Below, in pieces: positions 16,037 through 32,894 of a DNA stretch of 64,000 nt. A program made the position numbers and the translations under genes. The DNA is from Thermoleophilia bacterium (GTDB taxonomy: Bacteria > Actinomycetota > Thermoleophilia > RBG-16-64-13). The notes under the pieces were generated by a model that saw only the letters and a list, made by a program, of their open reading frames with translations, was not told where the DNA came from and searched no databases. The stretch's first letter is position 1; the number at the start of each line of letters is the position of its first letter. The stretch lies in NCBI GenBank assembly GCA_027493445.1, contig JAOSKU010000001.1, forward strand, positions 794,501 through 858,500, in the 5' to 3' direction.

Positions 16037-16959
16037 AAGTCCTCCTTTGACTCTCGGATTCTCCCAGCCCCCTGACGGCGAAAACCCTCCTCCGCCCGAT
16101 AGGAGCTGCGCACGAACGGCGCTGCCTCCACCTGCAGACCGCACTTCTCTCCATACTCACGGTACTCTTCGAATCGAGCGGGGTGCACGTACTCGATCAC
16201 CGGCAGGTGCTCGCGGCTAGGCCGCAAGTACTGCCCGATGGTCACCAGCGCAACGCCGGCGTCAACCGCATCTGTGAGGAGGCGGCGCACTTCCTCGGCG
16301 GTCTCACCCAGTCCCACCATCAAGCCGGTCTTGACCACACTGCCGCCGCACTCGGCGGCGTAGCGCAGCACGTCGAGCGAGCGCCCGTAGTCGGCCTGGG
16401 GCCGTACCCTCAGGTAGAGGCGGGGCACGGTTTCCACGTTGTGGTTGAAGACCTCGGGAGCCTCGTTCAGCACCAAGTCCAGGGAATGCCGAGACCCCAG
16501 GAAGTCGGGCACCAGCACCTCCACCGTAGCGTGCGGAAGGCGCTCCCTCAAGGCCTGCATGGTGGCCACGAAGTGGCCCGCCCCTCCGTCCGGCAGGTCG
16601 TCGCGGGTCACCGAGGTAACCACCACGTGGCGCAGCCCCATCGTGGCGGCGGCGGCCGCCACCTGCTCTGGCTCATCCGGGTCCAGCGGGCCCGGACGCC
16701 CGCTCTCCACGCTGCAGAATGGGCAGTCGCGGGTGCACGAGCCGCCCATGATAAGGAAGGTGGCCGTGCCCCGCTCGAAGCACTCGCCCTTGTTCGGGCA
16801 CCTGGCGCTCTCGCAGACGGTGTGCAACCGGCGGGCGCGGAGGAGGGTCTCCATCTCCCTCATGGCCGCAGCCTTCGGCAACGGCTTCTTGAGCCAAGCC
16901 GGCTTGGGCCCCGGACCTTCTGGGCCCTGCTTGGGCATGGTGTCGTTAGCCGTGCTCAT
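16030..16959 (-). CDS. lipA: Lipoyl synthase (radical SAM)
   Basis: About 309 residues. It inserts two sulfur atoms into protein-bound octanoyl groups to form lipoyl cofactors. The auxiliary cluster cysteines lie in CESARCPNKGEC and the radical SAM cysteines in CTRDCPFC. The C-terminal RSSY element that ligates the auxiliary cluster is also present. The ATG at 16959 follows a GAGG sequence. Its place between lpdA and acsE in the Wood-Ljungdahl run suggests lipoylation of a glycine cleavage H protein that shares methylene-THF with the pathway, but no gcvH or gcvP lies in this window. Confidence 0.94.
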   Translation of the reverse strand: MSTANDTMPKQGPEGPGPKPAWLKKPLPKAAAMREMETLLRARRLHTVCESARCPNKGECFERGTATFLIMGGSCTRDCPFCSVESGRPGPLDPDEPEQVAAAAATMGLRHVVVTSVTRDDLPDGGAGHFVATMQALRERLPHATVEVLVPDFLGSRHSLDLVLNEAPEVFNHNVETVPRLYLRVRPQADYGRSLDVLRYAAECGGSVVKTGLMVGLGETAEEVRRLLTDAVDAGVALVTIGQYLRPSREHLPVIEYVHPARFEEYREYGEKCGLQVEAAPFVRSSYRAEEGFRRQGAGRIRESKEDLC

Positions 16960-17002
16960 ACCTCTGCCTTCGCGGGCGGCGCCTCCGCCCTCCGCAGGTT
17001 CC

Positions 17003-18397
17003 TCAACTGGCGACATGCACCGATTCGCCGTGGACGTCGTGAGCCGCTTCCATGAGGGCCTCGCCGATCGTCGGATGGGCGTGGATGGTATCGCCCACCT
17101 CCCTCACCGTGAGCCCATTCCTCACGGCTACGGCGATCTCGTGGATGAGATCGGTCACGTGCGGCCCCATCATATTCGCACCGATGACCTTGTCGGTCTT
17201 CTGGTCGGCGATGATCTGGATGTAGCCTTGAGCTTCTCCGATCGCGAGCGCCTTGCCGGCCGCCCCCAGGCGGAAAGTGCCGGTGACGGGCTCATAGCCC
17301 TCGTCGCGCGCCTGGTCCTCGGTGAGACCTACGCTGGCGATCTCGGGCAGGGTGTAGATGCAGCTGGGCACCACGTGCAGGTCGCGCTCTTGGCTGCCGC
17401 CCAGGCAGTTCTCCACAGCCACCAGCCCCTCGTACGAGGCCACGTGGGCCAGCAAGATGCCGCCGTTCACGTCTCCGATGGCGTAGACGTTCTTGACGTT
17501 GGTCTCGAGTTTGTCATTCACCTTGATGTAGCCCCGGCCGTCGGTCTCGACCCCTAGCGTGTCGAGGCCTATGCCCTGAGTGTTCGGCTGGCGGCCGATG
17601 GAGACCAGCATCTTCTCGGCGGTGATCTGCTGGCCGCCTTCGATGTTTGCCGTGATGTGATCGCTGGCGTACTCGGCAATACCATCGACCTTTGTCTTCA
17701 GGAGCACCTCGATACCCTTCTTCTTGAAGATGCCCTGGAACTGCTTGGCCAGCCTCTTGTCCTCCAGGGGCAGCATCTGGGGCATCATCTCCACCATAGT
17801 GATCTTCGTGCCCAGCTCCGAGAAGACGCTGGCGAACTCGCACCCGATGACTCCCGCCCCGATGACCAGGAGCGTCTCGGGGATCTCGGTCAGCTCGAGG
17901 GCGCTCGTCGACGTGAGCACCGTGGGCTGATCGAAGTCGAAGAAGGGGAGTCGGGCCGGCTCGGAACCGGTGGCGATGATGGTCGTGTCTGCCTCCAGGG
18001 TCTGGGTGCCCTCCTCGGTCACGGCCTCCACCTTGCCCGGGCCGGCCAGCCTCCCGTGACCTTTCACCAGCTTGACCCTATTCTTCTTGAACAGGACTCC
18101 GACGCCATCGCGCAGCGTCTTCGCGATCTCATTCTTGCGTTCCATCATGCGGGTGAAATCCGGCACGATCTCGCCCGCGACTGAGAAGCCGAACTCGGAA
18201 CCCGACCGGGCCTTGTGCAAAGCCTCGACGCTCCCCAAGAGGGACTTTGTGGGGATGCAGCCCCGGTTGAGGCACGTACCGCCCAGTAGGTCCTTTTCCA
18301 CCACGGTCACGTCGGCGCCGCGTTGCGCCGCCCGGATGGCAGCCACGTAGCCGCCCGGCCCGCCGCCGATGATGACTATCCTCGTCGCATCGCCCAA
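17003..18397 (-). CDS. lpdA: Dihydrolipoamide dehydrogenase
   Basis: 464 residues, a typical E3/L-protein flavoenzyme that oxidises dihydrolipoyl groups with NAD. The FAD motif IIGGGPGGYVAAIRA starts near residue 9, the redox disulfide lies in GGTCLNRGCIPTK, the NAD motif is VIGAGVIGCEFAS, and the catalytic His-Glu pair lies in HAHPTIGE near the C-terminus. lpdA is also found in CODH/ACS clusters of clostridial acetogens, where it is linked to the glycine cleavage system. A GC-rich hairpin separates it from metF upstream. Confidence 0.95.
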   Translation of the reverse strand: MGDATRIVIIGGGPGGYVAAIRAAQRGADVTVVEKDLLGGTCLNRGCIPTKSLLGSVEALHKARSGSEFGFSVAGEIVPDFTRMMERKNEIAKTLRDGVGVLFKKNRVKLVKGHGRLAGPGKVEAVTEEGTQTLEADTTIIATGSEPARLPFFDFDQPTVLTSTSALELTEIPETLLVIGAGVIGCEFASVFSELGTKITMVEMMPQMLPLEDKRLAKQFQGIFKKKGIEVLLKTKVDGIAEYASDHITANIEGGQQITAEKMLVSIGRQPNTQGIGLDTLGVETDGRGYIKVNDKLETNVKNVYAIGDVNGGILLAHVASYEGLVAVENCLGGSQERDLHVVPSCIYTLPEIASVGLTEDQARDEGYEPVTGTFRLGAAGKALAIGEAQGYIQIIADQKTDKVIGANMMGPHVTDLIHEIAVAVRNGLTVREVGDTIHAHPTIGEALMEAAHDVHGESVHVAS

Positions 18398-18481: not shown

Positions 18482-19378
18482 TTAAATGAGGCCGGCCATG
18501 CGGAGGATGTCGGGAACGATCTCCTCCTTGCCGATGGCCATGATGTGCACACCGTCGCACACGTTGTTGTCCATGCAGAACCGGATGTGCCGCGCGCAGA
18601 TCTCCATGCCTTTGTGCAAGGCCTCCTCCTTGGGCACGGAGGCCATCTCTTCCAGCAGGTCGTCGGGCACGAACACACCGGGCACGAACTTGTTCATATA
18701 CTTGGCCATGCCCACGCTGGTGAGCACCACCAGGCCGGCCATCATCTTGACGTCCTGGCCTTCGGTCACGCCCCGAGCGTACTCCATGAACCGCTGGAAA
18801 TTGTCCATGTCGTAGACGGCCTGGGTCTGGAAGAACTGCGCGCCGGCCTCGACCTTCTTTTCGAACTTGAGCTTCTGCGGCTCGATGGGGTCGGACTCCG
18901 GGGTGACCACAGCGCCGATGTAGAAGTCGGTGCTGCCTTGCAGCTCGTTGCCGGCCCAGTCGAAGCCTTCGTTCATCTTCTTGACGGCTTGGATCAGCTG
19001 CACCGACTCGAAGTCGTACACTTCCTTGGCGTCTTTGTGGTCACCCACGCTCACGTGGTCGCCCGTGAGGGCCAGCACGTTGCGGATGCCGAGAAAGTGC
19101 GCCGAGAGCAGATCGTTCTGGATGGCCAGGCGGTTGCGGTCGCGGCAGGTCACCTGGTAGATGGCATCGCCCCCTCGGGTGACGATCTCGTGCGAGACGG
19201 CCATCGACCCCAGACGCAACACGGCGCTTTGGTTGTCGGTCACGTTCAGACCGTCGACCAGGTCCTTCAACAGATCGATGTGATGCACCATCTCGCGGAC
19301 GTCGGTGCCCTTGGGCGGGCCGATCTCCCCCGAGACGACGAATTTGCCGCTCTCGCAGGCCTCCCGGTACCTAGCCAT
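18482..19378 (-). CDS. metF: Methylenetetrahydrofolate reductase
   Basis: 298 residues, MTHFR fold (FAD-binding TIM barrel). It reduces methylene-THF to methyl-THF in the methyl branch. Visible family features include the N-terminal VSGEIGPPKG (catalytic Glu region), VTCRDRNRLAI and LTGDHVSVGDH (flavin contact), and FFQTQAVYD. The gene lies three bases downstream of metV, matching the two-subunit MetFV enzyme of acetogens. No Rnf, Hdr or Mvh partner gene, which supply electrons in other acetogens, is nearby, so the electron donor is unknown. Confidence 0.94.
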   Translation of the reverse strand: MARYREACESGKFVVSGEIGPPKGTDVREMVHHIDLLKDLVDGLNVTDNQSAVLRLGSMAVSHEIVTRGGDAIYQVTCRDRNRLAIQNDLLSAHFLGIRNVLALTGDHVSVGDHKDAKEVYDFESVQLIQAVKKMNEGFDWAGNELQGSTDFYIGAVVTPESDPIEPQKLKFEKKVEAGAQFFQTQAVYDMDNFQRFMEYARGVTEGQDVKMMAGLVVLTSVGMAKYMNKFVPGVFVPDDLLEEMASVPKEEALHKGMEICARHIRFCMDNNVCDGVHIMAIGKEEIVPDILRMAGLI

Positions 19379-19380
19379 GC

Positions 19381-20052
19381 TTATGCCGCCCCTTTCTCTT
19401 CATCAGCCGTTCGCCCGTTGATGCGACCGGGACGCTCCACCGCGTTCCAACGTTTGGGACTGTGGATCTTCATGAACTTGTCGAGCTTGTCCTCGCTCTT
19501 CAGCTGGTTGTAGATGAGGACCCATGCGCAGTCCTTCTCCGAGTCCACCTCGCACTTGCCCATGTTGGTGCCGCCGCAGGGGCCGTTCAGGATGCCCTTG
19601 GCGCAGCGGGTGACCGGGCAGATAGCGCCGTACTCGTCGAGCACGCACTCGCCACAGAGCGAACACTTCTCCTCGAACACCATGTTGCGTTTCGTGTTGC
19701 CCACAAACAGGGAATCGGCCCCGGGCACCACGTGCTTCGACGTCGCCTCGCGTACCGACTGCACTCCGCCGCCGCACGACAGCACCAAGAAGGCGTCTGC
19801 CGTCGCGGCAGCCGCCTTGTTCTGCCGGAAGATGCGCTTCATGTCCAGCTCGTGGCAGGTGGAATGGGCCACGTCGGTGGCGACGATCGTCTTGCCGGCC
19901 TCCTGGAGGCGGGCCTGGATGTCGGCTACCTGCTCTTCGCCTCCCGTCTGTGTCTGGGTGGCGCACTCGCCGCAGCCGACGATGTAGATGTTCGTATCGT
20001 TCGCCAGGCTCTCGAGGATCTCCTCGAAGGGCTTCTGTTTGGTGATGTTCAA
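19381..20052 (-). CDS. metV: MetV, zinc-containing partner of methylenetetrahydrofolate reductase
   Basis: 223 residues from a TTG at 20052 (NITKQKPFEEIL), preceded at seven bases by GGAGGT; this is better than the upstream extension, which looks like non-coding sequence. The C-terminal half has cysteine-rich elements (CSLCGECVLDEYGAICPVTRC and NGPCGGT) typical of the MetV/methylene-THF reductase C-terminal domain. In acetogens MetV forms a complex with MetF and is needed for activity. The GCGECAT element near residue 25 suggests an additional redox or metal site. The gene is followed at three bases by metF. Confidence 0.9.
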   Translation of the reverse strand: MNITKQKPFEEILESLANDTNIYIVGCGECATQTQTGGEEQVADIQARLQEAGKTIVATDVAHSTCHELDMKRIFRQNKAAAATADAFLVLSCGGGVQSVREATSKHVVPGADSLFVGNTKRNMVFEEKCSLCGECVLDEYGAICPVTRCAKGILNGPCGGTNMGKCEVDSEKDCAWVLIYNQLKSEDKLDKFMKIHSPKRWNAVERPGRINGRTADEEKGAA

Positions 20053-20147
20053 CTGGTCGACCTCCGATGTTCGAGGCGGCACGCCCCGGAGCGACGCGCC
20101 GTCCTGACTCTCACTCCCGGCCTGCAGAGCGCCGGAGCGGGACCTGG

Positions 20148-21482
20148 CTACAGGCCCCGCAGGTACCGCGGAACATCCGCCGCCTCGCGTACGCCCACGG
20201 TGACTTCCCATCCGTCGAGCTCCTCTTCGAGCTCGCCACTAATCTGGGCCACGTATCCCGGGATGACGATCTTCCGGTGGTTGACCTTCTCCTCGATGCC
20301 ACTCTTCTTCACGAAGACCGCGATGGCGTCGGCCACGAACTTGCCGGCCGCCCACGAGGTCAACACCGATTGGCCCTCGGTGTCCATGACCAACAGCCAG
20401 GTGGGTACCTTGCTGGCCTCGATCTCGCCGGCCACAGTGAAGTAGGTGAGCGAGAAGTTCGTTGTGATCAGCAGCGGGCTGTCTGGGGTGGGATCGTTGA
20501 TGGGATAGATGCCCTGATCCATCTGCATGGGCCGCTGCGGGTCGGTGTAGATGTTCTGGGCCAGAACCAGCAGGGGCATGACCTGTGCCGGATCCAGGGT
20601 GTCGATCACGATCACGCCCGCGTATTTTGCCACAAAAACCCCTGCAAACACGGACTTCAGCATCGCGTCGCCGGTCATCTTGCAGGGGAAGGCGATGGTG
20701 GGAAAGCCTAGAGGCCGGAGCTTCTTCTTGATGGCCGCCCGGCGGATGTAGGTCTGATCGCGCACGGCATCCTGCAGGTTGGCCGACATGGGGTCGAGAA
20801 CGACCTCCTTGAAGTCGCCGGCCACACATCTCTCCCCCAGCTCGGCCAGCTCATCGAGCGTGGCTGCCTTGATGGCGAAGGGCACCGCAAGCTCCTTGGC
20901 CGCCGCCGACACCGCGTCGAAAGTCGCGGTCGTGGCCGCGTAGAGCAGAGGCTTCCGGTCTTTGATCGGTTCAGCTGCGGTCTTGAGGGCAGCCGGATCC
21001 TCGCTCATGATCACGATGCCCGCGCCCGACTCGTCGGAGGCAGTCTTGACCCGGGCCGCCAACTTCGCGGCGTCCGCCGACTCGATGGCGAAAAGCTTCG
21101 CCCGCAGCACCTGTCCGACCCGCTCGAACTCTTGAGCCTTCATCGTGTCCACGGCCAGCCGGAAGGCCGTGTCGTCCACGGAGTCGTCGATCAGGATGGC
21201 GATGCCCGGCGGGTGCTCGAAACGCTTCTCGTGCCGGTAGAGGACGGTCTCCTCACCCAGCACCAGGGCCATGTCGCCGGCCCCGATGGTGACTTTACGA
21301 ACCGGGGGAGCCGCGGCCTCGCCGAGCTCGGCTGCCGCCTCGGCCGAGATGTGGGGACACTGGGAAAGCTCGGCCTTGCCCGAAGCAAGCTGCATGGCGA
21401 AGGCCATGCAGGTCGGGAACCCACAGTCCTTGCAGTTGGTCTTGGGTAGGAGCTTGAAGATCTGAAGCCCGCTCAGCGCCAA
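20148..21482 (-). CDS. acsC: Corrinoid/iron-sulfur protein large (gamma) subunit
   Basis: 444 residues from a TTG at 21482 (ALSGLQIFKLLP), which has AAAGGAG about eight bases upstream. It carries the [4Fe-4S] cluster that reactivates the corrinoid, with ligands in NCKDCGFPTC and the later C of LSQCP near residue 40. The C-terminal TIM barrel and cobalamin-binding region receive the methyl group from AcsE and pass it to acetyl-CoA synthase with AcsD. Length and motifs match AcsC of acetogens. About 95 bases separate it from metV. Confidence 0.94.
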   Translation of the reverse strand: MALSGLQIFKLLPKTNCKDCGFPTCMAFAMQLASGKAELSQCPHISAEAAAELGEAAAPPVRKVTIGAGDMALVLGEETVLYRHEKRFEHPPGIAILIDDSVDDTAFRLAVDTMKAQEFERVGQVLRAKLFAIESADAAKLAARVKTASDESGAGIVIMSEDPAALKTAAEPIKDRKPLLYAATTATFDAVSAAAKELAVPFAIKAATLDELAELGERCVAGDFKEVVLDPMSANLQDAVRDQTYIRRAAIKKKLRPLGFPTIAFPCKMTGDAMLKSVFAGVFVAKYAGVIVIDTLDPAQVMPLLVLAQNIYTDPQRPMQMDQGIYPINDPTPDSPLLITTNFSLTYFTVAGEIEASKVPTWLLVMDTEGQSVLTSWAAGKFVADAIAVFVKKSGIEEKVNHRKIVIPGYVAQISGELEEELDGWEVTVGVREAADVPRYLRGL

Positions 21483-21517
21483 GGTTCCACTCCTTTCTGA
21501 CTCATCATCGAGGCGAC

Positions 21518-21562
21518 ACTCGGGAGGGGTGACGGCGTCGCGTGCCACCTCCCCTCCCGAGT
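21518..21562. promoter_or_regulatory. Hairpin between acsB and acsC
   Basis: Twelve-base perfectly complementary arms (21518-21529 and 21551-21562) with a 21-base loop lie in the 84-base gap between acsB and acsC. It has no T-tract and lies inside one operon, so a role in partial termination or mRNA processing that sets acsB relative to downstream genes is possible but unproven. Confidence 0.45.
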
Positions 21563-21566
21563 CGGG

Positions 21567-23810
21567 TTAGAACATCGGGTCCATTTCCAGCGCCGGGTGA
21601 CCGACCTCGGTGAGGTAAGCGAGAACCTCGTCCTCCTCCGTGCCGTTCTCCTCGGTCGCGATCTTGTCGTAGAGGTCGGAGTACCCTGACCGCTCCGCAT
21701 TGGCGCTGATGGCCTCGCGCAGCTCCTCCTTCAGCTTCTTGGGCATCCAGACCAGGCGGGCGATGCCGCCGTCACCGCTGATGAACTTCGACGAGCCCAT
21801 GTAGAACTTGGAGTGGCCCACGAAGCCTGGTGTTTGTGCGCCGCCCCCTACGGAACCCGCAAGCGTGGAGAACTTCATGCCGCAAGGAGTCATGCCCGTG
21901 TGGTCGCGGTCGACCGTCATGATGCCGTTGCACATGGGCAGCAGCACGCTGATGGCCTCGAAGCAGCCGCACGAGGTCATGGGATCTTCCATCATGGTGT
22001 AGGCGTTGAAGCGCTCCACGGCGTTGTGGGAGTTCTGGTACACGAACTCGTTCACGCCTACCCACTGACCCTTGGGCTGGTCGATGACCGCGCCCTTGAC
22101 GATAGGCTGGTTCGGCCCGGTGGGGTTGATCTCGAAAGCGGCCTTGCCGTCCAGCCAGTTGTAGGCGCCGCACAGTCCGGGACGCTCCGGGGTGATCACG
22201 CACACGTGGTCGGGAGCAAAGCTCTGGCACAGGGTGCAGCTGTAGAAGGTTTCGACCGACTCGTCGGTCAGCGACCCGATGCGGTCGTCGCGCTCGTGAT
22301 AGGCCGACTGGGCGCGTGCCACCAGCTCGGACACCTCGGGCTCCTTGGTGAAGACGGTGACCTGGGCCTTGTCCATGATCCCACCGAAGTCGGCGTGATA
22401 GCGGGCGTGGATGATCTTGCCCACGTGCTCGAACTTGAGGCCCGCCTCGACGGCCTTCTTGCTGATCCGCTCCCAAATGATGTCCCGCTGGCCCACGTGT
22501 AGAAAGCCTTCGGCCTCGTTCAGGAAGTGGTGCAACTGGCGCTCCAAGATGGGCTCGAAGTCCTTCTGCATCTTCCGGCCGGATACCTCGACCAGCACGC
22601 CGAATGGGATGGTACTGCCTACCTCCACCTCATCGATCTCGGGGCCGACCACGGTCACCTTGCCGTCTTCCACGTTCTCGGCGATGACGGTCAGTTCGGC
22701 GCCGGGCGCCTTGGGGCCAGCCATCTCCACGTGCAGGTCTTCCTTGCGGATGCGTTCGCCTTCGAAGGCCGGCCCGTACGCCACCGGGACCGGGACCTCG
22801 GTGATGACGATCTTGAGGCCGCGCACCTCGATCGCCTTGGCTACGATCTCGCTCGGGGGGACATTCGAGACCACGTGCTCGTAGGTGGTGACACCGGTGG
22901 GCAGGATCTCGGGGATGTCGGTCTCGGCGATGGTGGGGAAGCCGTAGTTGATGGCCCCGGCCGCCGCCGCATACTTCAGGTCGTCGACCTCGCCCAAGGC
23001 CAGGACGAAGGCGAACACCCGGTCCTTGTTGTACCTGAGCGTACCCTTGTAGTCGCCGGGCTTGACGTTTCCGAAGGCCATGGCAGCCCGGGTGGCGAAA
23101 CCGATGGAGTAGATGTGCCCATAGATCTCCGGTCCGAAGGGCACCAGGCGGGTCTCCCAACCCATCTCCACCCCGGCCTCCGCCAGCTGGTCGGCGAAGG
23201 TGGTGCCTCGGGACTCCCCGGCGATGAAGACATACAGCGACTTCTGCTGCATCTCCCGGGCCAGAGCCACGGCCGTCTCCGCGTCGGGAGCCGCACCGGT
23301 CACTGCCGCGAAGCCGGGAGCCGACCCGTCCACGAACTCCACGCCCCGGGCGCGCATGATGACGTCGTCGGCCGCTCCCAGCCAGATGCCCTGCACCGGG
23401 GCCGGTCCCACGCCCACGTATTTCAGCGCCTCGATGACCTCGGCCAACCACAGCGCGGCCATGCCCCCATCGAGGGTCTCACCCAAGTAGGGGAGCCAGA
23501 GCTTGTCGCTCGGTACCGGGGGCAGTAGCTTCTCGGCTTCGTCGAGCACCCACTGGATGTCGCCCAGGGTCTCCACCTTGTGACCGGTGATGGCGTAGAT
23601 CACGGGCAGGAAGTAGCCCGTGTTGGGGAACTCCACCTTGGTGGCGGCGTCCCTGGAGGCCAGGGCCTCCTGGTAGCGGCTCCTGGCCAGGTCGTAGTAG
23701 GCGCGCGCGCCCCGGGCCACGCCGCCCGCGATGACCTCGCGGATACCTTCGGGTTTTCTCCGTTGTATGCCGTTCTTCTGCATGTCGATCCTCTGCATGA
23801 CAGTCGCCAT
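21567..23810 (-). CDS. acsB: Acetyl-CoA synthase (CODH/ACS beta subunit)
   Basis: 747 residues, bacterial three-domain type. It condenses the corrinoid methyl group, CO from CODH and CoA into acetyl-CoA at the nickel A-cluster. The four [4Fe-4S] cysteines are visible in SCTLCQSFAPDHVC and the following GLCGAYNW. The Cys-Gly-Cys that holds the distal nickel lies in TSCGCFEAI, and the region around it is conserved. An internal ATG at codon 5 or 10 could be the start instead. It follows cooS closely, within the same operon. Confidence 0.96.
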   Translation of the reverse strand: MATVMQRIDMQKNGIQRRKPEGIREVIAGGVARGARAYYDLARSRYQEALASRDAATKVEFPNTGYFLPVIYAITGHKVETLGDIQWVLDEAEKLLPPVPSDKLWLPYLGETLDGGMAALWLAEVIEALKYVGVGPAPVQGIWLGAADDVIMRARGVEFVDGSAPGFAAVTGAAPDAETAVALAREMQQKSLYVFIAGESRGTTFADQLAEAGVEMGWETRLVPFGPEIYGHIYSIGFATRAAMAFGNVKPGDYKGTLRYNKDRVFAFVLALGEVDDLKYAAAAGAINYGFPTIAETDIPEILPTGVTTYEHVVSNVPPSEIVAKAIEVRGLKIVITEVPVPVAYGPAFEGERIRKEDLHVEMAGPKAPGAELTVIAENVEDGKVTVVGPEIDEVEVGSTIPFGVLVEVSGRKMQKDFEPILERQLHHFLNEAEGFLHVGQRDIIWERISKKAVEAGLKFEHVGKIIHARYHADFGGIMDKAQVTVFTKEPEVSELVARAQSAYHERDDRIGSLTDESVETFYSCTLCQSFAPDHVCVITPERPGLCGAYNWLDGKAAFEINPTGPNQPIVKGAVIDQPKGQWVGVNEFVYQNSHNAVERFNAYTMMEDPMTSCGCFEAISVLLPMCNGIMTVDRDHTGMTPCGMKFSTLAGSVGGGAQTPGFVGHSKFYMGSSKFISGDGGIARLVWMPKKLKEELREAISANAERSGYSDLYDKIATEENGTEEDEVLAYLTEVGHPALEMDPMF

Positions 23811-23815
23811 CTGCG

Positions 23816-25766
23816 CTACCCCCGCCTGTCGGCCATGTCGAACAACACACGCTCCCGGGCCTCGTGGATACCCAGAGCCTCACGCTTCTTCTGGATGTGG
23901 GCCATGGAAGCCTCGAAGATCCCTTGCCAGTCGGGGATGAACTCCAGCTTGCCGCCGAACTTCTCTTCCCAGCCCGAGGAGTGGATCTCGGTGACGACGC
24001 CCGAGGCGCGCACGGGCGACTCCACCCCCGCCGAAGATGACGTAGGCGCCGCTGCCCACGCAGTACGTGGCGATCTCGAGGGCTTTCTCGCAGTAGTACT
24101 CCGGCGAAATGCCAACCGCCGGGACCTGGTCGATATCGTCGCCCAGACCGCCGGTTTCGACGATCTCAGCCAGAATGGTCAGGATGCGCGAGTTATCCAC
24201 GCAGCTCCCCACGTGCAGGACGGGAGGCATGCCGGTCGTCTCGCAAACTTCGGAGAGCCCGGGGCCGGCGTTCTCGAACATCTCCGGGGTCAGGAAGCCG
24301 TGCTTGCCCGAGGCGTGGGCGGCACAGCCGGTCACCAGCACGAGCACGTCGTTCTGGATGAAGCTCTTGACCAGGTTGATGATGCCCTCGTCCTGGGTGG
24401 TCCGGGGGTTGTTGCACCCCACGATGGCCGCGGCTCCCTGGATCTTGCCGTTGACGATGTTGTCGTTCAGCGGCACGAAGCTGCCCCGGAACTTGCCGCC
24501 CAGCATGTAACGAATGTATTCGTGCGAGAAACCCGCCACCACCGGGCTCTTGTGCGAGGGGATGTGGATCTGACCCCCGTCCCGGTTGGGGAAGTTGTCG
24601 ATGGCCATCTTGACGATGTCCCTGGCGATCTCGAGCGCCCGGTCCTCGTGGAACTCCACGTGCATGGCGCCCTCGATCCTGGCCTTGGACGAGGTGGTCA
24701 CCAGGTGCGTATGGAACTGGTTGGCGACGCCCACCAGCCCTTGGAAGACACACTGGATGTCGGTGACCATGAGCTCCACGGCTCCGGTGAGCAGGGCCAG
24801 CTCCTGGTGCAGGGAGTTGCCCGCCGGTGGGACTCCGCGACGCATCCAGACCTCGTTGGCCGTACAGCAGATGCCGGCCAGGGTGATGCCTTCGGCGCCC
24901 TTGCTCTTGGCGTACTCGATCAGCTCCGGATCCTGGGCGGCGTCCACGATCATCTCCGAGAGCACCGGTTCGTGCCCGTGGATGATGATGTTGACGTTCT
25001 TCGCCTCGAGTACGCCCAGGTTGGCCTCGCTCGTCACCGGCTTCGGCGTGCCGAACAGAATGTCGGAGACGTCGGTGGCCAGCATGGAGCCGCCCCAGCC
25101 GCTGGCCAAGCACATACGCACGCATTGGTCCATGATGTGCTCGGCGTCCTGATCGCCCCCGGCGTGCGTGCGGTGCATGGAATCGACCACCTCGCGGTCG
25201 AAGCCTCGCGGCGTCACCCCCAGCTTTTCCCATAGCTCCTGACGCTTTTTGGGCGCCCGCTTGACGTAGGTCTGATGCTCGTTGTGCTTGCTCCAGTCGT
25301 TGAGCGCGGCCAGCGCCACCTCCTCGGCCAGCTGGAGGTCGTCCTTACCCTCGGTCTCGATGTCGAAGTAGCCGGCGACGGTGCGCAGCTTGATCGGGTC
25401 CTTGACGGCGTAGTCCGGGGTCTGCTTGCGGGCCACGGCCAGCAGCGTCTCCACGATGGTGCGACCATGGTCGGCATGGGCCGAGGCCCCGCCGGCGCAG
25501 GAGCGGATGTAGTTGCGGGCGGCCACGGTCGCCAGGCTGGCGCCGCACACCCCATGCTTCTCTTCCTTCTCCTTGCCGATGAAGCGGCAGGGGCCCATGA
25601 AGCAGACCTTGCAGCAGGCCCCTTCGGCGCCGATCGGGCAGGCGCTGACCTCGTCCACGCGCGAGAACATGGTGGAGATGCCCTTCTCTTCAGCGACCTT
25701 CAGCATCTCGAGGGCTGCGGGGTCGATCGACTTCGCGTACCCGTTTCCCTTCTTCTTGTCAGTCAT
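23816..25766 (-). CDS. cooS: Carbon monoxide dehydrogenase catalytic subunit (one apparent frameshift)
   Basis: Ni-Fe CODH (AcsA/CooS) that interconverts CO2 and CO and feeds CO to AcsB. The N-terminal B and D cluster cysteines lie around GACCKVCFMGPC and GVCGAS. C-cluster ligands are seen in HGHEP, AGICCTANE, TGCAAHASGK and GSCVDNS. At 24025-24029 a run of five C (G on the coding strand) appears one base too long: the reading frame runs off after VIFGG, while the true C-terminus (VESPVRASGVV, then KLEFIPDWQGIFEAS) continues in the next frame to a stop at 23816. Corrected length is 649 residues, close to family size. Confidence 0.94.
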
Positions 25767-25787: not shown

Positions 25788-26732
25788 CTACTCGCCCTTG
25801 AGGCTGGCGATGGCCTGGCGGATCAGGTTGGCGGACTCCGGATGCCGCAGCACGACGACGTTGGCCCCCGCCAAGAGCAGCGAGACCGCCGTCAGGGATT
25901 CCCACATGAGACCGCGCGTCTTGCGATCGCCGGTGCCGGGGAGCTCCTCTTCGGTCACCTTGGTCTCCTTGGCCTTCCAGGCCTCTTGACCAACGGTGGC
26001 CAGAATGGGCATCTGCATCTTGGCGTCGTTCTGAGCGAGAGCGGCCAGGCGGTCCCGCTCGAAGACCGTATAGGCGTACTCCAGGCCGTAACCGAGAGCC
26101 CCGGTGGTGGGATCCATGACGATCATGCCCTCGTCGACCCCCAGCTGCGAGAGAAGCACGTTCAGCTGCTTGGCCAGGTTGACATCCATGGGGCTGAACG
26201 CCACCACGCCATGCTTGTAGCCCATGGCGGCCGCGCCGATGGGACGGTAGTTGTCCTCCTCCGCGTTGCCGATGACCACGGGGGTATCGGCAAGGGTCTC
26301 GGCCACCGCCTTCATGACGTCGACGTCAGCCTCCACGTCGCCCGATCCGACGACCACCACGGGCACGTCCACGCTCTCCACGACCTGCTTGGCCGTTGCG
26401 GCGGCCTCGACCGAGGCTTTGGCCGCTCCGTTGGGATCGGTGCTCTTCAGGCGCAGGTAGATGAGCTGGGCGCCGAACTCGTCCACAGCCCTCTTCGCCC
26501 AGGCCACCGGATCGGCCCAAACGTCGGCGAGGATGACCTCGAGCTCCGGCGACCAATCATCGGGGGCGATGTCCCAGACCTCGAAGGCCAGCTTGGGGTC
26601 GTTGGGCATCTCGCCCTCGAAGGTATGGAAAGGGAAGGCCGTCTCTCCCCCAATAGCCACCCCGCCCAGATCAGTGGCGCGAATGACCCCTTTGTATGTT
26701 TCTGTGGGTGCTTGGAACGCCAAGTCCGTCAC
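25788..26732 (-). CDS. acsD: Corrinoid/iron-sulfur protein small (delta) subunit
   Basis: 314 residues with the TIM-barrel fold of AcsD, which pairs with AcsC to hold the cobamide during methyl transfer. Recognisable stretches are NAEEDNYRPIGAAAMGYKH, YSPMDVN-like AFSPMDVNLAKQLN and the C-terminal LRHPESANLIRQ. It lies between folD and cooS with short gaps. The assignment rests on overall family resemblance and its position among the other Acs genes. Confidence 0.93.
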   Translation of the reverse strand: MTDLAFQAPTETYKGVIRATDLGGVAIGGETAFPFHTFEGEMPNDPKLAFEVWDIAPDDWSPELEVILADVWADPVAWAKRAVDEFGAQLIYLRLKSTDPNGAAKASVEAAATAKQVVESVDVPVVVVGSGDVEADVDVMKAVAETLADTPVVIGNAEEDNYRPIGAAAMGYKHGVVAFSPMDVNLAKQLNVLLSQLGVDEGMIVMDPTTGALGYGLEYAYTVFERDRLAALAQNDAKMQMPILATVGQEAWKAKETKVTEEELPGTGDRKTRGLMWESLTAVSLLLAGANVVVLRHPESANLIRQAIASLKGE

Positions 26733-26774: not shown

Positions 26775-27740
26775 CTATGCTCCAGCCAGCAGGCGGGCCG
26801 CCCGCAGCGTGTTCTTCGCCAGCATCATGTTGGTCACCGAGCCGACGCCCCCGGGAACCGGGGTGATGGCCTTGACCTTTCCCACCAGCTCATCGAAGTT
26901 GGCGTCGCCCACCGTCTTGCCTTCGGCTTCGCTCAGGTCGGCGCCGCATTTCTTGCAGGGGTCCTTCTTGGCCCGATTGTAGGTGCCGCATTCCGGGCAG
27001 ACGATCACCCGGTTGATGCCCACGTCGATGACCACCGCCCCCTCTTTCACCTGCTCGGAGCCGATAAGATTCGGGAAACCGGCAGCCACGACGACATAGT
27101 CCGCGGCCGTCGTATGCTTCTCGAGATTGCCCTTCATCGAGGTGAAGACGTGCACCGTGGTGGTAGAGGCGTTGCGATTCAGGCACAGAAAGCTGACCGG
27201 TTTACCGACGATGTTCGAGTGACCCACCACGCAGATTTCGGCACCTTCAAAGCCGTCTTTTGGATCGATCCCTTCGCCTTTCATGTACCGTTCCATGAGC
27301 TCGATGCAGGCTGAGGGAGTGGCGGGCGGAAACGTCGGCTCGCCCAACGCCAACTTGCCCATGTTGAAGGGATGGAAGCAGTCGATGTCCTTATCGACGC
27401 TGATGGAGTTGATGACCGCCGAGTCCGAGATATGCTCGGGGAAGGGGCGCAGGGGCAGGATGCCCGAGACCTTGGCGTCGGCGTTCAACGACTCGACTAT
27501 CCTGATGACGTCGGCTTCGCTGATGTCGGCCGGGTGGGTCTCCTCCCGGTAGTTGAAACCCATCTCCGCGCAGAACTTCTCCACCGCGCCTCGGTACATC
27601 CGGGCGCCGAAGTTGTCGCCCACCAGCAGGGTGGCGATACCCGGCTCGATGCCCTTGGTCTTGAGCCCCTCGAGCTCCTTTGCCAGCTCCGCCCGAATCT
27701 CGTCGGCGATGGCCTTTCCGTCGATGATCTTCGCACCCAT
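26775..27740 (-). CDS. folD: Methylenetetrahydrofolate dehydrogenase FolD variant with zinc-ribbon insertion
   Basis: 321 residues from the ATG at 27740, with GGAGG eight bases upstream. The fold is FolD: KDIDCFHPFN, the Rossmann motif VVGHSNIVGKPVS and TPVPGGVGSVT are all present. Two departures stand out. The active-site lysine of bifunctional FolD (YxxxK) is Val53 in MYRGAVEK, and the expected Gln of the VQLPLP motif is Leu97 in ILPLRPFP; the catalytic Asp of DxD remains. A 30-residue Cys4 ribbon (C248, C251, C262, C265) is inserted between DVGINRV and GDANFD, next to the cofactor site. I infer a dehydrogenase without cyclohydrolase activity, consistent with fchA directly upstream. Confidence 0.9.
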   Translation of the reverse strand: MGAKIIDGKAIADEIRAELAKELEGLKTKGIEPGIATLLVGDNFGARMYRGAVEKFCAEMGFNYREETHPADISEADVIRIVESLNADAKVSGILPLRPFPEHISDSAVINSISVDKDIDCFHPFNMGKLALGEPTFPPATPSACIELMERYMKGEGIDPKDGFEGAEICVVGHSNIVGKPVSFLCLNRNASTTTVHVFTSMKGNLEKHTTAADYVVVAAGFPNLIGSEQVKEGAVVIDVGINRVIVCPECGTYNRAKKDPCKKCGADLSEAEGKTVGDANFDELVGKVKAITPVPGGVGSVTNMMLAKNTLRAARLLAGA

Positions 27741-27766: not shown

Positions 27767-28402
27767 TCAACCCAGCTTCTCGTATGTCATGGCCACGACC
27801 TGTGCGCGCAGGCGTGCGGTCTCGGCCAGCACGGCCTCGACCCGGTCCCAACTCGAGCGGTTGAACTCCGCATCGCTGATCCACCCGAGGTTGATCTTCA
27901 CGTTCAGAGCGGCGCTTTGCGCGGCCGCTTCAGCCAGGAGTACGGCCACACCGGCGTCACTCACCGCGTTCACGTTGCCGATCTCGGCCGCGGTGACACT
28001 GAGCCGGGCCACCCGCAGGGAGTGCTCCCCGATGGCGAGAGGGACCCGGGCGGCCTCCCTGAGCGCGGTCTGCATCCGCGCATCGCGAACGGACTTCTGC
28101 TCCTCGGTTTCGCGGGGCAGCTTCATCGCCTCGGAGACCGCCCCGTAGACCTCGGTGTCGCGTTGCAGCAGCTCCTGCAACGACACCCTGACGGCCTCCG
28201 CTTCCCCCAGGAGGACCTCGATCCGGTCCTGCACACCGGCGTACTTCTCCTTCCCGATGGTCAGGGCGGCCACCATACTCACCAGCCCTGCGCCCAGCGC
28301 TCCGGTCAACGCCGCGACGCTCCCCCCACCGGGCTCCGGACTCGAGGTAGCCAGCTTGTCCAGAAAGGCCCGGATGCTCCCATCCACGTAGGGTACAGCC
28401 AC
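27767..28402 (-). CDS. fchA: Methenyltetrahydrofolate cyclohydrolase (FchA, formiminotransferase-cyclodeaminase family)
   Basis: 211 residues, all-helical FTCD_C domain. The family motif PEPGGGSVAALTGALGA lies near residue 22. In acetogens this protein catalyses methenyl-THF cyclohydrolysis, converting formyl-THF to methenyl-THF after Fhs, and is found next to fhs and folD as here. The neighbouring FolD has lost residues required for this activity, which supports FchA as the cyclohydrolase of this pathway. It is 26 bases upstream of folD. Confidence 0.93.
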   Translation of the reverse strand: MAVPYVDGSIRAFLDKLATSSPEPGGGSVAALTGALGAGLVSMVAALTIGKEKYAGVQDRIEVLLGEAEAVRVSLQELLQRDTEVYGAVSEAMKLPRETEEQKSVRDARMQTALREAARVPLAIGEHSLRVARLSVTAAEIGNVNAVSDAGVAVLLAEAAAQSAALNVKINLGWISDAEFNRSSWDRVEAVLAETARLRAQVVAMTYEKLG

Positions 28403-28473: not shown

Positions 28474-29232
28474 CTATTCTACGACGTACTGCTCCACAAG
28501 CACGCGCACGGCGGCAAGACCCACCGCGTCCTCCGACAACTGGAAGAGATCCTGGCCCTCGAGGTCGCCCTCGAAAAGCAGCTCGTCCTCGGGGACCACG
28601 CCCGCCAGGGCAACCGAGGTATGCTCCATCAGCGCGCTCACATCCACGTCCCTGGGAACGCGGTTGATGACCACGTACCTCTCCCTGACCACGATGCCCA
28701 GCTCGTCGATGAGCTCCGTTATGCGCTCCACGGTGCGCATGCCCCGCACCGTCGGGTCGGTCACGATGAACATGACGTCCACGTCGCGGGTGGTGTGGCG
28801 GCTCAGATGCTCCAGGCCCCCCTCGTTGTCCATCACCACCCAGGCATACTCCTTGGCCAGGGTCTTGATGTACTCGCGGAAGAGGTTGTTCGCGTAGCAG
28901 TAGCAGCCCGGGCCCTCCGGACGGCCCATCACGAGCAGGTCGAAGCCGTCGGCCTCGCCCAGGGCCTCGTGCATCTTGTACTCGATCCAGCTCTGCTTGT
29001 CCCAGCCCGCGGGGATCTCGCGCGCTCCCATGAAGGCCTTCTCGCGCAGCCCCCCGACCGAGGCAGGAGCCTGCACGCCCAGCACCTCGCCCAGATTCGC
29101 GTTCGGGTCGGCGTCTACGGCCAGGATGGGCGAGGCGCCCCTTGACAGCATGGCCCTGATGATCAGCCCCGAGATGGTGGTCTTACCCGTACCGCCCTTG
29201 CCGGCCACAGCGATGGTGCGCGTCTCGGCCAC
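28474..29232 (-). CDS. cooC: CODH nickel-insertion ATPase CooC
   Basis: 252 residues, MinD/Mrp-type deviant Walker A P-loop GKGGTGKTT near residue 11, followed by VDADPNANLGEVLG. CooC-type ATPases load nickel into CODH and the related AcsF acts on acetyl-CoA synthase; here a single copy lies in the CODH/ACS operon and may serve either or both. CYCYANNLFREY near residue 110 contains the CxC pair seen in the family, a likely nickel site. Its start immediately follows the acsV stop, so the two are coupled. Confidence 0.92.
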   Translation of the reverse strand: MAETRTIAVAGKGGTGKTTISGLIIRAMLSRGASPILAVDADPNANLGEVLGVQAPASVGGLREKAFMGAREIPAGWDKQSWIEYKMHEALGEADGFDLLVMGRPEGPGCYCYANNLFREYIKTLAKEYAWVVMDNEGGLEHLSRHTTRDVDVMFIVTDPTVRGMRTVERITELIDELGIVVRERYVVINRVPRDVDVSALMEHTSVALAGVVPEDELLFEGDLEGQDLFQLSEDAVGLAAVRVLVEQYVVE

Positions 29233-31191
29233 CTACCGGCCTCCCGCCGCCAGGCCGCTCAGCACCTGGTCCATCGCCGGGAAGTAGCTCATGTCGGTGT
29301 GGGGCAGGAACATGGCCGCCATGTAGCGGTCCATGAAAAGCTGGTTGTCGGAGAGCTCCACGTTGGTCATCATCAAGGCCACCTGCTCGGCGCTCTTCAG
29401 CATGTCCTTGGAGAAGGAGACCAGCCGCGCGCCCAGCAGGGAGCCGTTGCCCACGAAGGTGAAGCTGTCGACGTCGACCTCGGGGAAAAGTCCGATGGCC
29501 TGGGCTTCCTCGATGCGCAGGTACTTGCCGAAGCCGCCGGCCACGTAGATCTGCTCCAGATCGGCCCAGTCGAGCGCCACACTTTCGAGCAGGGTCATGA
29601 TGCCCGCGAAGATGGCCGCCTTGGCCCGCACCAGGTTGTCGATATCGGCCTCGTTGATCACAATGTCTTCACCCAGGCCCGAATACTCCGCCTCCACGAG
29701 CACATATTCGTTGGCCCCGTCGGTCTCCCGGATGCGCCACGTATCAAGGTCGGTGTTGAAGCGGCCGTTTTGGGAGATCGCCCCCACCTTGAGCAGCTCA
29801 GCCACCGCATCGATGATTCCCGAGCCGCATATGCCGATGGCCGGCCGGTTGCTGATGGTCAGGATGGTCGGCTCCAGCGTCTGCGGATCGATGCGCACCG
29901 TTTCCACGGCGCCGTCGGTGGCCCGCATGCCGTGCCTAACGCCGCCACCCTCGAAGGCCGGACCGGCCGAGCACGAGGTGGCGATGAGCCACTCCCGGTT
30001 ACCGATGACCACCTCGCCATTGGTGCCAATGTCGATGTACAGGGTGATCTTCTCGGTCTCGAAGATGCCCGAGCCCACGATCCCCGACACGATGTCGCCC
30101 CCTACGTAGCTGGCCACGGAGGGGAACGTGTAGACGTGCACGTGGCGACCCACCTTCAAGCCTTCACCCAGATTGACGGCCCGCACCGGGGGAATGAAGT
30201 CCGCCGGGGGCACGTACGGCGTCATGCGCAAGTACTTGGGGTCGATACCCACCAGCAGGCAGGTCATGGTGGTGTTGCCCGCGGCCACCATGTGCGTGAT
30301 CTGCTCCCGGTCGACCCGGGTGCTCTCTACCAGCTCGTCGATGATCTCGTTGACGGTGTCCACGATGGCCTGCTGCAGCTGCTCGCGCCCGCCGGGGCGC
30401 TGCGAGTGGACGATGCGCGTGATGACGTCCTCCCCAAAGCTGATCTGCTTGTTGTAGGCCGAGGCCTGGGCCAACGTCGCGCCGCAGGTGAGGTCGAGCA
30501 ACTGCCCCCACACGGTGGTGGTTCCAATGTCGAGGACCACCGAGTAGTCCTGCTCGCAGTGGGAGCCCGGCTCGAGGTCGATCGCCTTGTAGCCGTAGGC
30601 GGTGTCGACCACCGTGGCCGTTACCAGCCAGTCCTGCTCGCGCAGCACGCTGGGCATGTTCCGGATCCAGATGGAATCGACCGAGACGGAGCTCAGGCCG
30701 AACTGATCTTTCAAAGCCTTCCTGAAGCGGGCCAGATCGTTCAGATTGTCGCCGTCGGAGGGCGGGGTCAACTGCATGCACAGCTTCTTGACCACCGGAT
30801 CGAGGGTCCAGCCGGTGACCAGCGACTCCAGTTCAGCCGGAGTCAGCAGACGGCCCTTGCGCTCGCCCCGCAGCTCGCGCTCCAGCACGGCGGCGTTGCC
30901 CATGCGCGACGCTTCCGGCACGAACACCGCGACGTCGGAGCTCACCCTGGTGTTGCAGGCCAGACGGGTGCCGTCGGACCACTCGTCGTCGTCGATCTTC
31001 GCCGAGCGGTCGCTGTCGACCTCACCGGACAGCAGCTTGATGCGGCACTTGCCGCACGAGCCTGCTCCCCCACAGGAAGCATTGATATGGATGTTGGCCT
31101 GCATGGCCGCGCGGAGAACGGATTCTCCGCGCGGCACATCAGGGACCTTCACGTCACCCGGCTGGAAGGTGAGGGTATAGCGCTGCGTCAT
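29233..31191 (-). CDS. acsV: AcsV, ATP-dependent corrinoid reductive activator
   Basis: 652 residues. The N-terminal plant-type [2Fe-2S] ferredoxin domain has ligands in NASCGGAGSCGKC near residue 40 and a later cysteine in LACNTRV. The C-terminal ASKHA ATPase domain shows VLDIGTTTV near residue 215 and a further glycine-rich DIGTNGEVVIG. Such proteins use ATP to reduce inactive Co(II) corrinoid to Co(I), so this one should reactivate the corrinoid of AcsCD. It is between fhs and cooC in the operon, a context that supports the role. Confidence 0.92.
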   Translation of the reverse strand: MTQRYTLTFQPGDVKVPDVPRGESVLRAAMQANIHINASCGGAGSCGKCRIKLLSGEVDSDRSAKIDDDEWSDGTRLACNTRVSSDVAVFVPEASRMGNAAVLERELRGERKGRLLTPAELESLVTGWTLDPVVKKLCMQLTPPSDGDNLNDLARFRKALKDQFGLSSVSVDSIWIRNMPSVLREQDWLVTATVVDTAYGYKAIDLEPGSHCEQDYSVVLDIGTTTVWGQLLDLTCGATLAQASAYNKQISFGEDVITRIVHSQRPGGREQLQQAIVDTVNEIIDELVESTRVDREQITHMVAAGNTTMTCLLVGIDPKYLRMTPYVPPADFIPPVRAVNLGEGLKVGRHVHVYTFPSVASYVGGDIVSGIVGSGIFETEKITLYIDIGTNGEVVIGNREWLIATSCSAGPAFEGGGVRHGMRATDGAVETVRIDPQTLEPTILTISNRPAIGICGSGIIDAVAELLKVGAISQNGRFNTDLDTWRIRETDGANEYVLVEAEYSGLGEDIVINEADIDNLVRAKAAIFAGIMTLLESVALDWADLEQIYVAGGFGKYLRIEEAQAIGLFPEVDVDSFTFVGNGSLLGARLVSFSKDMLKSAEQVALMMTNVELSDNQLFMDRYMAAMFLPHTDMSYFPAMDQVLSGLAAGGR

Positions 31192-31232: not shown

Positions 31233-32894
31233 CTAGAACAGCCCGACGATCTTCCCGTCGACCAAGTCGATCGCCTCGGCCGCCGGCCGTTTGGGCAGGC
31301 CCGGCATGGTCATCATCTTACCACAGACAGGTACGATGAACCCGGCGCCGGCCGAAAGCCTGACCTCGCGTACCGTCAGACGCCAGTCCCGCGGACGGCC
31401 GACGACGGTCTTGTCGTCGGAGAGCGACGCCTGGGTCTTGGCCATGCAGATGGGCAGGCCGGCGTAGCCGTTCTGAGTATAGAGCTCGATGGCCTCCTCG
31501 GCTTCGGGCGCGAAATCAACCCCGTCGGCGCCGTAGATCTTGGTGGCGATGATCTCGATCTTCTCTCTGACGCTCGTGTCCACGTCGTAGAGGAACTTGA
31601 AGTCGGGCTTCTCCTCCTCGCACATGCGCACGATTTCCTTGGCCAGCTCCACGCCGCCTTCGCCCCCCTTGGCCCACACCTCGGAGAGCACGACCTTGGA
31701 GCCCATGGCCTTGACCTTCTCGTCCAGGAGCGCGAGCTCGCTCTCCGTGTCGTCGGGGAAGCGGTTGATGGCCACCACGACGGGCAACCCGAAGAGATGC
31801 AGGTTCTCCACGTGCTTCTCGAGATTCTCGAGGCCCTTGGCGAGGGCGTCCAGGTTCTCGTCCTTCAGCTCCGCGAAGACCACGCCGCCGTGCATCTTGA
31901 GGGCCCGGATGGTGGCCACCAGCACCACCGCGTCAGGGGTCAGACCGGCGTAGCGGCACTTGATATCGAAGAACTTCTCGGCACCCAGGTCGGCGGCGAA
32001 GCCCGCTTCGGTCACGCAGTAGTCGGCCAGCTTGAGACCCATCTTCGTGGCCTGCACAGAATTGCAGCCGTGGGCGATGTTCGCGAAGGGGCCGCCGTGG
32101 ATGATGGCCGGCGTGTTCTCCAGGGTCTGCACCAGGTTGGGCTGGAGAGCGTCCTTCAGCAGAACGGCCATGGAGCCCGAGGCCTTGATCTCCTTGGCCG
32201 TGACAGGGTCGCCTTTCTTGCTGTACGCCACGATGATCCGGTCCAGGCGAGCTTTGAGGTCCTCGATGCTGGTGGCCAGGCACAGGATGGCCATGACCTC
32301 GGAGGCCACGGTGATGTCGAAGCGGGTCTTGCGTTCAACGCCCTCGCCTTCCTGGCCGATGGTCACGCTGCGCAGAGACCGGTCGTTCAGGTCGACCACC
32401 CGGGGCCAGGCGACGTTGTCGATGTCGATGTCGAGCTCGTTGCCCTGGAACAGATGGTTGTCCAGGATGGCGCCGCAAAGGTTGTGGGCGGTGGTGATGG
32501 CGTGAAGATCGCCCGTGAAATGCAGGTTTATGTCCTCCATGGGGACGACCTGGGCGTACCCGCCGCCCGCGGCGCCACCCTTGATGCCGAAGGAGGGACC
32601 GAGGGAGGGCTCACGCAGGGTGGTGATGACTTTCTTGCCGATCTTGGCCAGGCCCATGGACAGGCCGACGTTCGTGGTGGTCTTGCCCTCCCCGGCCGGG
32701 GTCGGAGTGATGGCGGTGCAGAGGATCAGCTTGCCGTCCGGCCGGCCGGCAAGCCGGTCAAAAACGTCAAGATGGATCTTCGCCTTGTACTTTCCGTAGA
32801 GGTCAAGGTCGTCCTCGCTCAGCCCAAGGTCGTTCGCGACCTCGATGATCGGTTTGAGCGTCGCCTCCTGCGCAATCTGGATATCGCTCTTCAA
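31233..32894 (-). CDS. fhs: Formate-tetrahydrofolate ligase
   Basis: 553 residues. It joins formate to tetrahydrofolate using ATP, the ATP-consuming step of the methyl branch. The P-loop [16 protein letters not shown] occurs near residue 62, and [17 protein letters not shown]-type and [12 protein letters not shown] stretches are characteristic. The start is a TTG at 32894 preceded by GGAGTCGGAGGG. It is the first gene of the Wood-Ljungdahl run; a strong promoter lies about 45 bases upstream. Confidence 0.97.

Follow-up and report, generated by a model that had tools for sequence, protein, structure and literature searches.

A FolD protein with a zinc-ribbon-like insert and predicted loss of cyclohydrolase activity, encoded next to FchA in a Wood-Ljungdahl operon

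The window, that is, the whole stretch of 64,000 nucleotides analysed here, encodes a FolD protein that lacks two residues characteristic of the bifunctional enzyme and carries four invariant cysteines in a lengthened loop. Judging from sequence comparison and modelling, we consider it fairly probable that this is a dehydrogenase-only FolD that works together with FchA in a Wood-Ljungdahl operon, has a structural zinc ribbon in the loop on the cofactor side, and probably uses NADH. On this reading, FchA would convert 10-formyl-THF to methenyl-THF, and FolD would convert methenyl-THF to methylene-THF, probably with NADH. The ribbon would bind zinc and serve as a structural clamp ordering the lengthened loop beside the cofactor site, being an elaboration rather than a part of the catalytic machinery.

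The FolD gene and its key residues

The gene (Table 1) starts with ATG, has no internal stop codon and encodes 321 amino acids; the coordinates given in an earlier note on this DNA were right, the strand being minus. Both Pfam domains of the family score above their cut-offs (THF_DHG_CYH, E=5e-32, 111 bits vs 32.8; THF_DHG_CYH_C, E=7.5e-48, 162.3 bits vs 27), and Y49, D120 and the PGGVG motif are present, as in other members of the FolD family. The NCBIfam models matching the protein best are all named bifunctional, and all score below their own cut-offs. The AlphaFold2 model (pLDDT 92, pTM 0.89, 17-sequence alignment) has FolD and MTHFD2 as its best Foldseek matches. The genome, which is 92% complete, contains this single FolD and no second copy.

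In the alignment with FolD from E. coli, Y50-x3-K54 corresponds to Y49-x3-V53, Q98 to L97, and D121 to D120. The window protein reads Y49-R-G-A-V53 for YxxxK and ILPL97RPFP for ILVQLPLP, and hence has neither the lysine nor the glutamine of bifunctional FolD. The earlier note had described precisely these substitutions, with the catalytic Asp kept, and the alignment bears it out. In a set of 91 FolD sequences, position 53 is occupied by Val in 17/17 ribbon-bearing and 10/10 clostridial sequences, by Ile in 11/11 sequences of class family f3, and by Lys in the other 51/51; position 97 is Gln in all 51 sequences with the lysine (K+) and Leu in all 40 without it (K-less). Other residues near the active site are also changed in the K-less clade, namely R98, C121 and S301-V302-T-N304, the last group altering the folate loop (PGGVGSVTN in the window protein vs PGGVGPMTI).

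Relatives and phylogeny

The window's family was represented by 18 genomes from 12 genera, the window's own included, with one FolD cut at a contig end. Val53 and Leu97 were found in all 17 relatives, and the four cysteines in all 16 that are readable there. Class family f3 has Ile and Leu at positions 53 and 97 and a short loop, and the rest of the class sample outside the K-less groups has K and Q at both positions.

A profile search in the phylum of a clostridial genome yielded K-less FolD in two genomes, and the follow-up in 18 of 100. These proteins are about 66-68% identical to the FolD of the window and share V53 and L97 with it. Their loop is Cys-free, of the VKVLDENGQPVLNEKGKPKTK type, and about 10 residues shorter than the ribbon (it had been taken to be of the same length, which proved wrong on checking); in the model it is ordered, with short strands (block pLDDT 92-94). 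FchA is located directly upstream in 17 of the 18. As a separate observation, PGGVG, otherwise a near-invariant folate-site motif, is changed to PKGVG or PRGVG in several clostridial K-less FolD (L169, L171, L174, L175, L177, L178, L181, L183 and L184).

Trees were built from alignments stripped of the insert and of the K and Q columns. They group all K-less sequences in a single clade, with support of 98 SH-aLRT for the 91-sequence tree and 100/98 for the 48-sequence one. The loss of the lysine is one change on the tree, effectively one event, and independent replication of this loss was therefore rejected. In the best tree the clostridial group lies inside the ribbon clade, and the ribbon then needs two changes; a tree uniting all ribbon sequences is also compatible with the data by the AU test (p=0.37), so that a single loss of the ribbon in Clostridia is just one possible order of gain and loss.

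The Cys4 insert

The insert lengthens the region from VGIN to VGD to 41 residues, compared with 14-26 in K+ FolD and 31 in the clostridial relatives. The CxxC-10-CxxC pattern that the earlier note had placed at residues 248-265, before GDANFD, is formed by C248, C251, C262 and C265. These cysteines, arranged in two CxxC knuckles, are invariant in 17/17 sequences of the window's family, down to 45% identity, and their spacing is CxxC-x10-CxxC throughout, except in L018 (x17). Since Val53, Leu97 and the four Cys do not vary across 17 sequences, chance substitutions and chance cysteines, the latter tried as an explanation of the ribbon and rejected because the Cys are invariant across genera, are excluded.

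The ribbon is modelled with confidence (block mean pLDDT 87-93, residues 241-280). Zinc-ribbon Pfam models match 6-10 of the 17 family members at E<=0.01; for the window FolD the best score is 18.4 bits vs 27.3, below the curated cut-off. Given the invariant cysteines, the confident model and these sub-threshold matches, the metal-stabilised insertion proposed in the earlier note is plausible: the ribbon is probably zinc-binding, and a structural zinc site would be the simplest reading of the loop, although the scores below cut-off speak against it. In our alignment the ribbon starts six residues past the equivalent of MTHFD2 Ile276, in the beta-h/beta-h1 loop. In MTHFD2, Ile276 bonds NAD+, and this loop is among the loops surrounding NAD+ (PMC8389891), which indirectly supports the earlier placement of the insert near the cofactor site.

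The earlier note named a ribbon common and known in FolD proteins as a refutation of its interpretation; in our searches, with their genome sets and cut-offs, it turned up only in the window's family. Outside this family, no ribbon was detected in 299 genomes of the class, in 397 of the phylum, or in three further phyla, those of L105 (Clostridia, 250 genomes), L040 (Thermodesulfobacteriota, 247) and L078 (Anaerolineales, 201), with profile cut-offs and a strict DNA pattern that could miss divergent ribbons. The fifth match of the DNA pattern, G535, resembles out-of-frame noise. A generic motif gave no ribbon FolD among the matches listed for named genomes, a result that does not show its absence there. 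With the genome sets and cut-offs used, the idea that FolD proteins in general carry the ribbon is not supported. No published FolD with a Cys4 zinc ribbon turned up in a literature search covering few subscription papers.

As the clostridial clade with the same catalytic substitutions has a Cys-free loop, the ribbon appears to be replaceable and not catalytic. An alternative that we consider unlikely, but the strongest of those examined, is that the ribbon is an interaction module by which FolD docks to a pathway enzyme such as FchA or MetFV, for instance channelling methenyl- or methylene-THF. Zinc ribbons often mediate contacts, FchA is a fixed neighbour, and N255, R256, K258 and K259 of the ribbon are well conserved besides the cysteines; however, the clostridial relatives have FchA as a neighbour but no ribbon, and the downstream neighbour varies between sub-groups (AcsD or MetV/MetF). 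Similarly doubtful is a role of the Cys4 loop in regulation or docking, by which the methyl-branch flux of the Wood-Ljungdahl pathway would be controlled at the cofactor site of a dedicated methylene-THF dehydrogenase, either via the metal or the redox state of the loop or via its hold on FchA or MetFV.

Predicted loss of cyclohydrolase and the probable FchA partner

The gene directly upstream, separated from FolD by 26 bp, belongs to an unrelated family, as the earlier note had recognised: Pfam FTCD_C matches it with E=4e-62 (209.6 bits vs the cut-off of 24.5), and the NCBIfam FchA model gives 208.4 bits, below the equivalog cut-off of 275. The separate, linked FchA gene expected of a monofunctional dehydrogenase working with FchA is present; in total, the window genome (G000) has four FTCD_C-family matches, the operon FchA included.

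In the 61-genome sample of the class, a strong FTCD_C match (E<=4.9e-48) is found in 27/27 genomes with K-less FolD, and FchA is directly upstream of this FolD in each of the 26 cases that the contig covers. At this level FTCD_C is absent from all 34 K+ genomes; weaker matches (E 4e-41 or worse) occur in nine of them, none beside FolD. The slot after CooC offers a natural control for the pairing of FchA with the loss of the lysine. Candidatus Aquicultor (L097) and class family f6 (L028-L030), in whose genomes no FTCD_C gene was found, have a FolD with K and Q immediately after CooC. L018 and the sub-group of the window have FchA inserted between CooC and the K-less FolD. Other members of the window's family have the order FTHFS-FchA-FolD-MetV-MetF. 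Still, this correlation does not represent many independent events, since the lysine was lost once on the tree, and the presence of FchA alone does not imply the loss in FolD, as 48 of the 82 clostridial genomes in which no K-less FolD was detected also have FTCD_C genes.

Two further loci contain YERRL-type K-less FolD. In the Actinomycetes MAG YP2.bin47 (L067, 6912-8924), a divergent K+ FolD precedes an adjacent K-less FolD with YERRL and LRPLP; FTCD_C was not found in this genome, which counts against the reading of a FolD working with FchA. A possible explanation is that the two activities are split between the two FolD proteins. In class family f4 (L131, 1313-2870, genome G220), a distant FchA-like gene lies upstream of the K-less FolD.

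The consequences of losing these residues are known from E. coli FolD, where K54N has undetectable cyclohydrolase and about 19% dehydrogenase activity, and Q98H retains about 1% and 8%, respectively (PMC5688156). The statement of the earlier note that replacement of the lysine removes cyclohydrolase and leaves dehydrogenase agrees with the K54N data. Both substitutions weaken the dehydrogenase as well, which is a point against a dehydrogenase-only enzyme. Moreover, Lys56 and Gln100 of human MTHFD1 have also been proposed as helpers of hydride transfer (PMC6443876), so compensation at other residues of the K-less enzymes is likely. From the invariant substitutions, the fixed FchA neighbour and the K54N data, we infer, on what we regard as good grounds, that FolD of the window is a dedicated dehydrogenase, with the cyclohydrolase activity supplied by FchA. 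To this extent the earlier proposal of a dedicated dehydrogenase stands, its interpretation as a whole being partly supported.

It seems improbable that FolD instead keeps a useful cyclohydrolase via other residues, such as K55, with FchA only boosting the flux. Lys or Arg is conserved at position 55, two residues past V53, and most acetogens are reported with both fchA and folD (PMC10103890), which fits such an arrangement. On the other hand, K55 is also found beside K53 in ordinary FolD, and E. coli K54N has no detectable cyclohydrolase; in the window protein, the glutamine of position 97 is lost as well.

Cofactor preference

Position 174, in the Rossmann loop, is Arg in 51/51 K+ FolD and His in 15 of the 17 ribbon sequences. 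The K-less clade as a whole mostly lacks R174, S/T198 (replaced by Val) and R/K199 (replaced by Phe), the two deepest ribbon members keeping R and S. A three-residue insert follows position 201 in the ribbon sequences and also in the clostridial ones. In MTHFD2, Arg201 and Arg233 bind NAD+ and phosphate (PMC8389891); in our alignment they are equivalent to positions 174 and 198. As the usual contacts with the NADP phosphate are gone in most of the clade, the loss of these residues suggests that the predicted dehydrogenase may prefer NAD+.

The paired CxxC knuckles adjoin the cofactor loop, and one ribbon member matches zf-ChsH2, a 'rubredoxin-like zinc ribbon' model (E=0.0033). Both observations would suit a Cys4 site that acts as a redox or metal switch, turning FolD off when it is oxidised or loses zinc, or that holds iron in a rubredoxin-like manner. 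We consider this quite improbable: the motif has only 18 residues, most matches are to zinc-ribbon models, and cysteines are absent at this place from the close clostridial clade, which shares the catalytic substitutions and mostly also the FchA neighbour. The redox sensing considered in the earlier note has found no support.

The Wood-Ljungdahl operon

The gene order in the operon is FTHFS, RACo, CooC, FchA, FolD, AcsD, CODH, AcsB, AcsC, MetV, MetF (Table 1), followed by Lpd, LipA and AcsE, and then by NuoF-like and formate dehydrogenase genes. That FolD is a divergent non-functional or repurposed protein is very improbable, as, despite the altered folate loop, it is the only FolD of the genome, lies inside an operon with FTHFS, MetF and CODH/ACS, and is strongly conserved across genera.

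Two observations concern other genes of the region. The lipoyl synthase and dihydrolipoyl dehydrogenase genes are located inside the operon, between AcsE and MetF (16030-18397, minus strand). The gene of the formate dehydrogenase alpha subunit (10091-12763, minus strand) has an in-frame TGA in the context NIDHCARL-TGA-HSSTVAGL, a classic selenocysteine site; when TGA is read as U, one long frame results. Its C-terminal end (about 10120-10145, minus strand) looks frameshifted, with the usual FHYAEAPANRLT-like tail running on in another frame, which could be an assembly error.

Table 1. Features of the FolD gene and its operon neighbours in the window
Feature	Position	Strand	Basis
FolD, methylenetetrahydrofolate dehydrogenase, predicted to lack cyclohydrolase activity	26775..27740	-	Pfam, AlphaFold2, Foldseek
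Tyr49 codon, conserved active-site Tyr	27594..27596	-	Invariant in all FolD aligned
Val53 codon, replaces YxxxK lysine	27582..27584	-	Alignment
Leu97 codon, replaces VQLPLP glutamine	27450..27452	-	Alignment
Asp120 codon, retained catalytic/binding Asp	27381..27383	-	Alignment
His174 codon, replaces Rossmann-loop Arg (GRS)	27219..27221	-	Alignment
Val198 codon, replaces Ser/Thr (Arg233 in MTHFD2)	27147..27149	-	Alignment
Insert, residues 246-274, loop between VIDVGIN and VGD strands	26919..27005	-	Region-length comparison
Cys4 zinc-ribbon-like motif C248-x2-C251-x10-C262-x2-C265, 18 residues	26946..26999	-	Cys conservation
FchA-like methenyltetrahydrofolate cyclohydrolase, directly upstream of FolD	27767..28402	-	Pfam FTCD_C
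Formate-tetrahydrofolate ligase (FTHFS)	31233..32894	-	Pfam FTHFS, E=2e-267
RACo-type corrinoid activation protein	29233..31191	-	Pfam RACo domains
CooC-type ATPase (CODH maturation)	28474..29232	-	Pfam CbiA; conserved neighbour
AcsD-like corrinoid protein small subunit (CdhD family)	25788..26732	-	Pfam CdhD
CO dehydrogenase catalytic subunit	23880..25766	-	Pfam Prismane/CODH
Acetyl-CoA synthase (AcsB)	21567..23810	-	Pfam CdhC, ACS_CODH_B_C
AcsC-like corrinoid protein large subunit	20148..21548	-	Pfam CdhD, FeS
Methylenetetrahydrofolate reductase: MetF (18482-19378), MetV-like (19381-20211)	18482..20211	-	Pfam MTHFR, DUF5981

Significance and comparison with known systems

The host bacterium fixes CO2, and its FolD no longer has the residues for one of the two reactions, a step that fchA probably supplies. 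FolD is usually annotated as bifunctional; the signature without K and Q, together with a linked FchA, would allow the two-step activity to be split correctly in reconstructions of acetogens and the Wood-Ljungdahl pathway. NADH is a testable cofactor prediction that matters for energy accounting, and the zinc ribbon, the Cys-free loop and the short loop on the same catalytic core provide a natural comparison for the gain or loss of a metal site.

The bifunctional FolD of E. coli (PDB 1B0A/5O22) shares with the window protein both Pfam domains, the fold, the Tyr, the Asp and PGGVG. In contrast, the catalytic Lys and Gln are missing from the window protein, which carries the Cys4 and three-residue inserts and is changed in the region of the cofactor 2'-phosphate.

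Enzyme pairs of the FolD/FchA type are already known, and for the ribbon we found no report. The methylene-THF dehydrogenase of Acetobacterium woodii has a single function, and Aluri et al. reportedly described in 2016 a FolD and FchA of Clostridium perfringens as a monofunctional dehydrogenase paired with a separate cyclohydrolase. We know of no ribbon described in these enzymes or in that of Peptostreptococcus productus; all three resemble the window enzyme, as predicted here, in being one-step dehydrogenases of anaerobes, with the cyclohydrolase activity coming from FchA. The P. productus methylene-THF dehydrogenase is referred to as monofunctional in work cited in PMC6443876, and that of A. 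woodii as NAD-dependent in work cited in PMC9430772.

Among eukaryotic proteins, yeast MTD1 (PDB 1EDZ) has the FolD fold and is described as NAD+-dependent and a dehydrogenase only; its sequence matches the window FolD weakly (E=3e-6). In the NAD domain it carries a two-strand insert of its own and, to our knowledge, no ribbon. Human MTHFD2 (PDB 6S4A, 7EHJ) is the second-best fold match, and its beta-h/beta-h1 loop corresponds to the one in which the ribbon is rooted here, but it is bifunctional and uses Arg201 and Arg233 with phosphate, both Arg being absent from the window FolD. Finally, the zinc-ribbon families (Pfam DZR, Zn_Ribbon_1, Zn_ribbon_3, DUF7577) share the CxxC-x10-CxxCG-x2-L pattern; they differ in that the window FolD scores below their curated cut-offs and in that its ribbon is a loop inside an enzyme rather than a separate domain.
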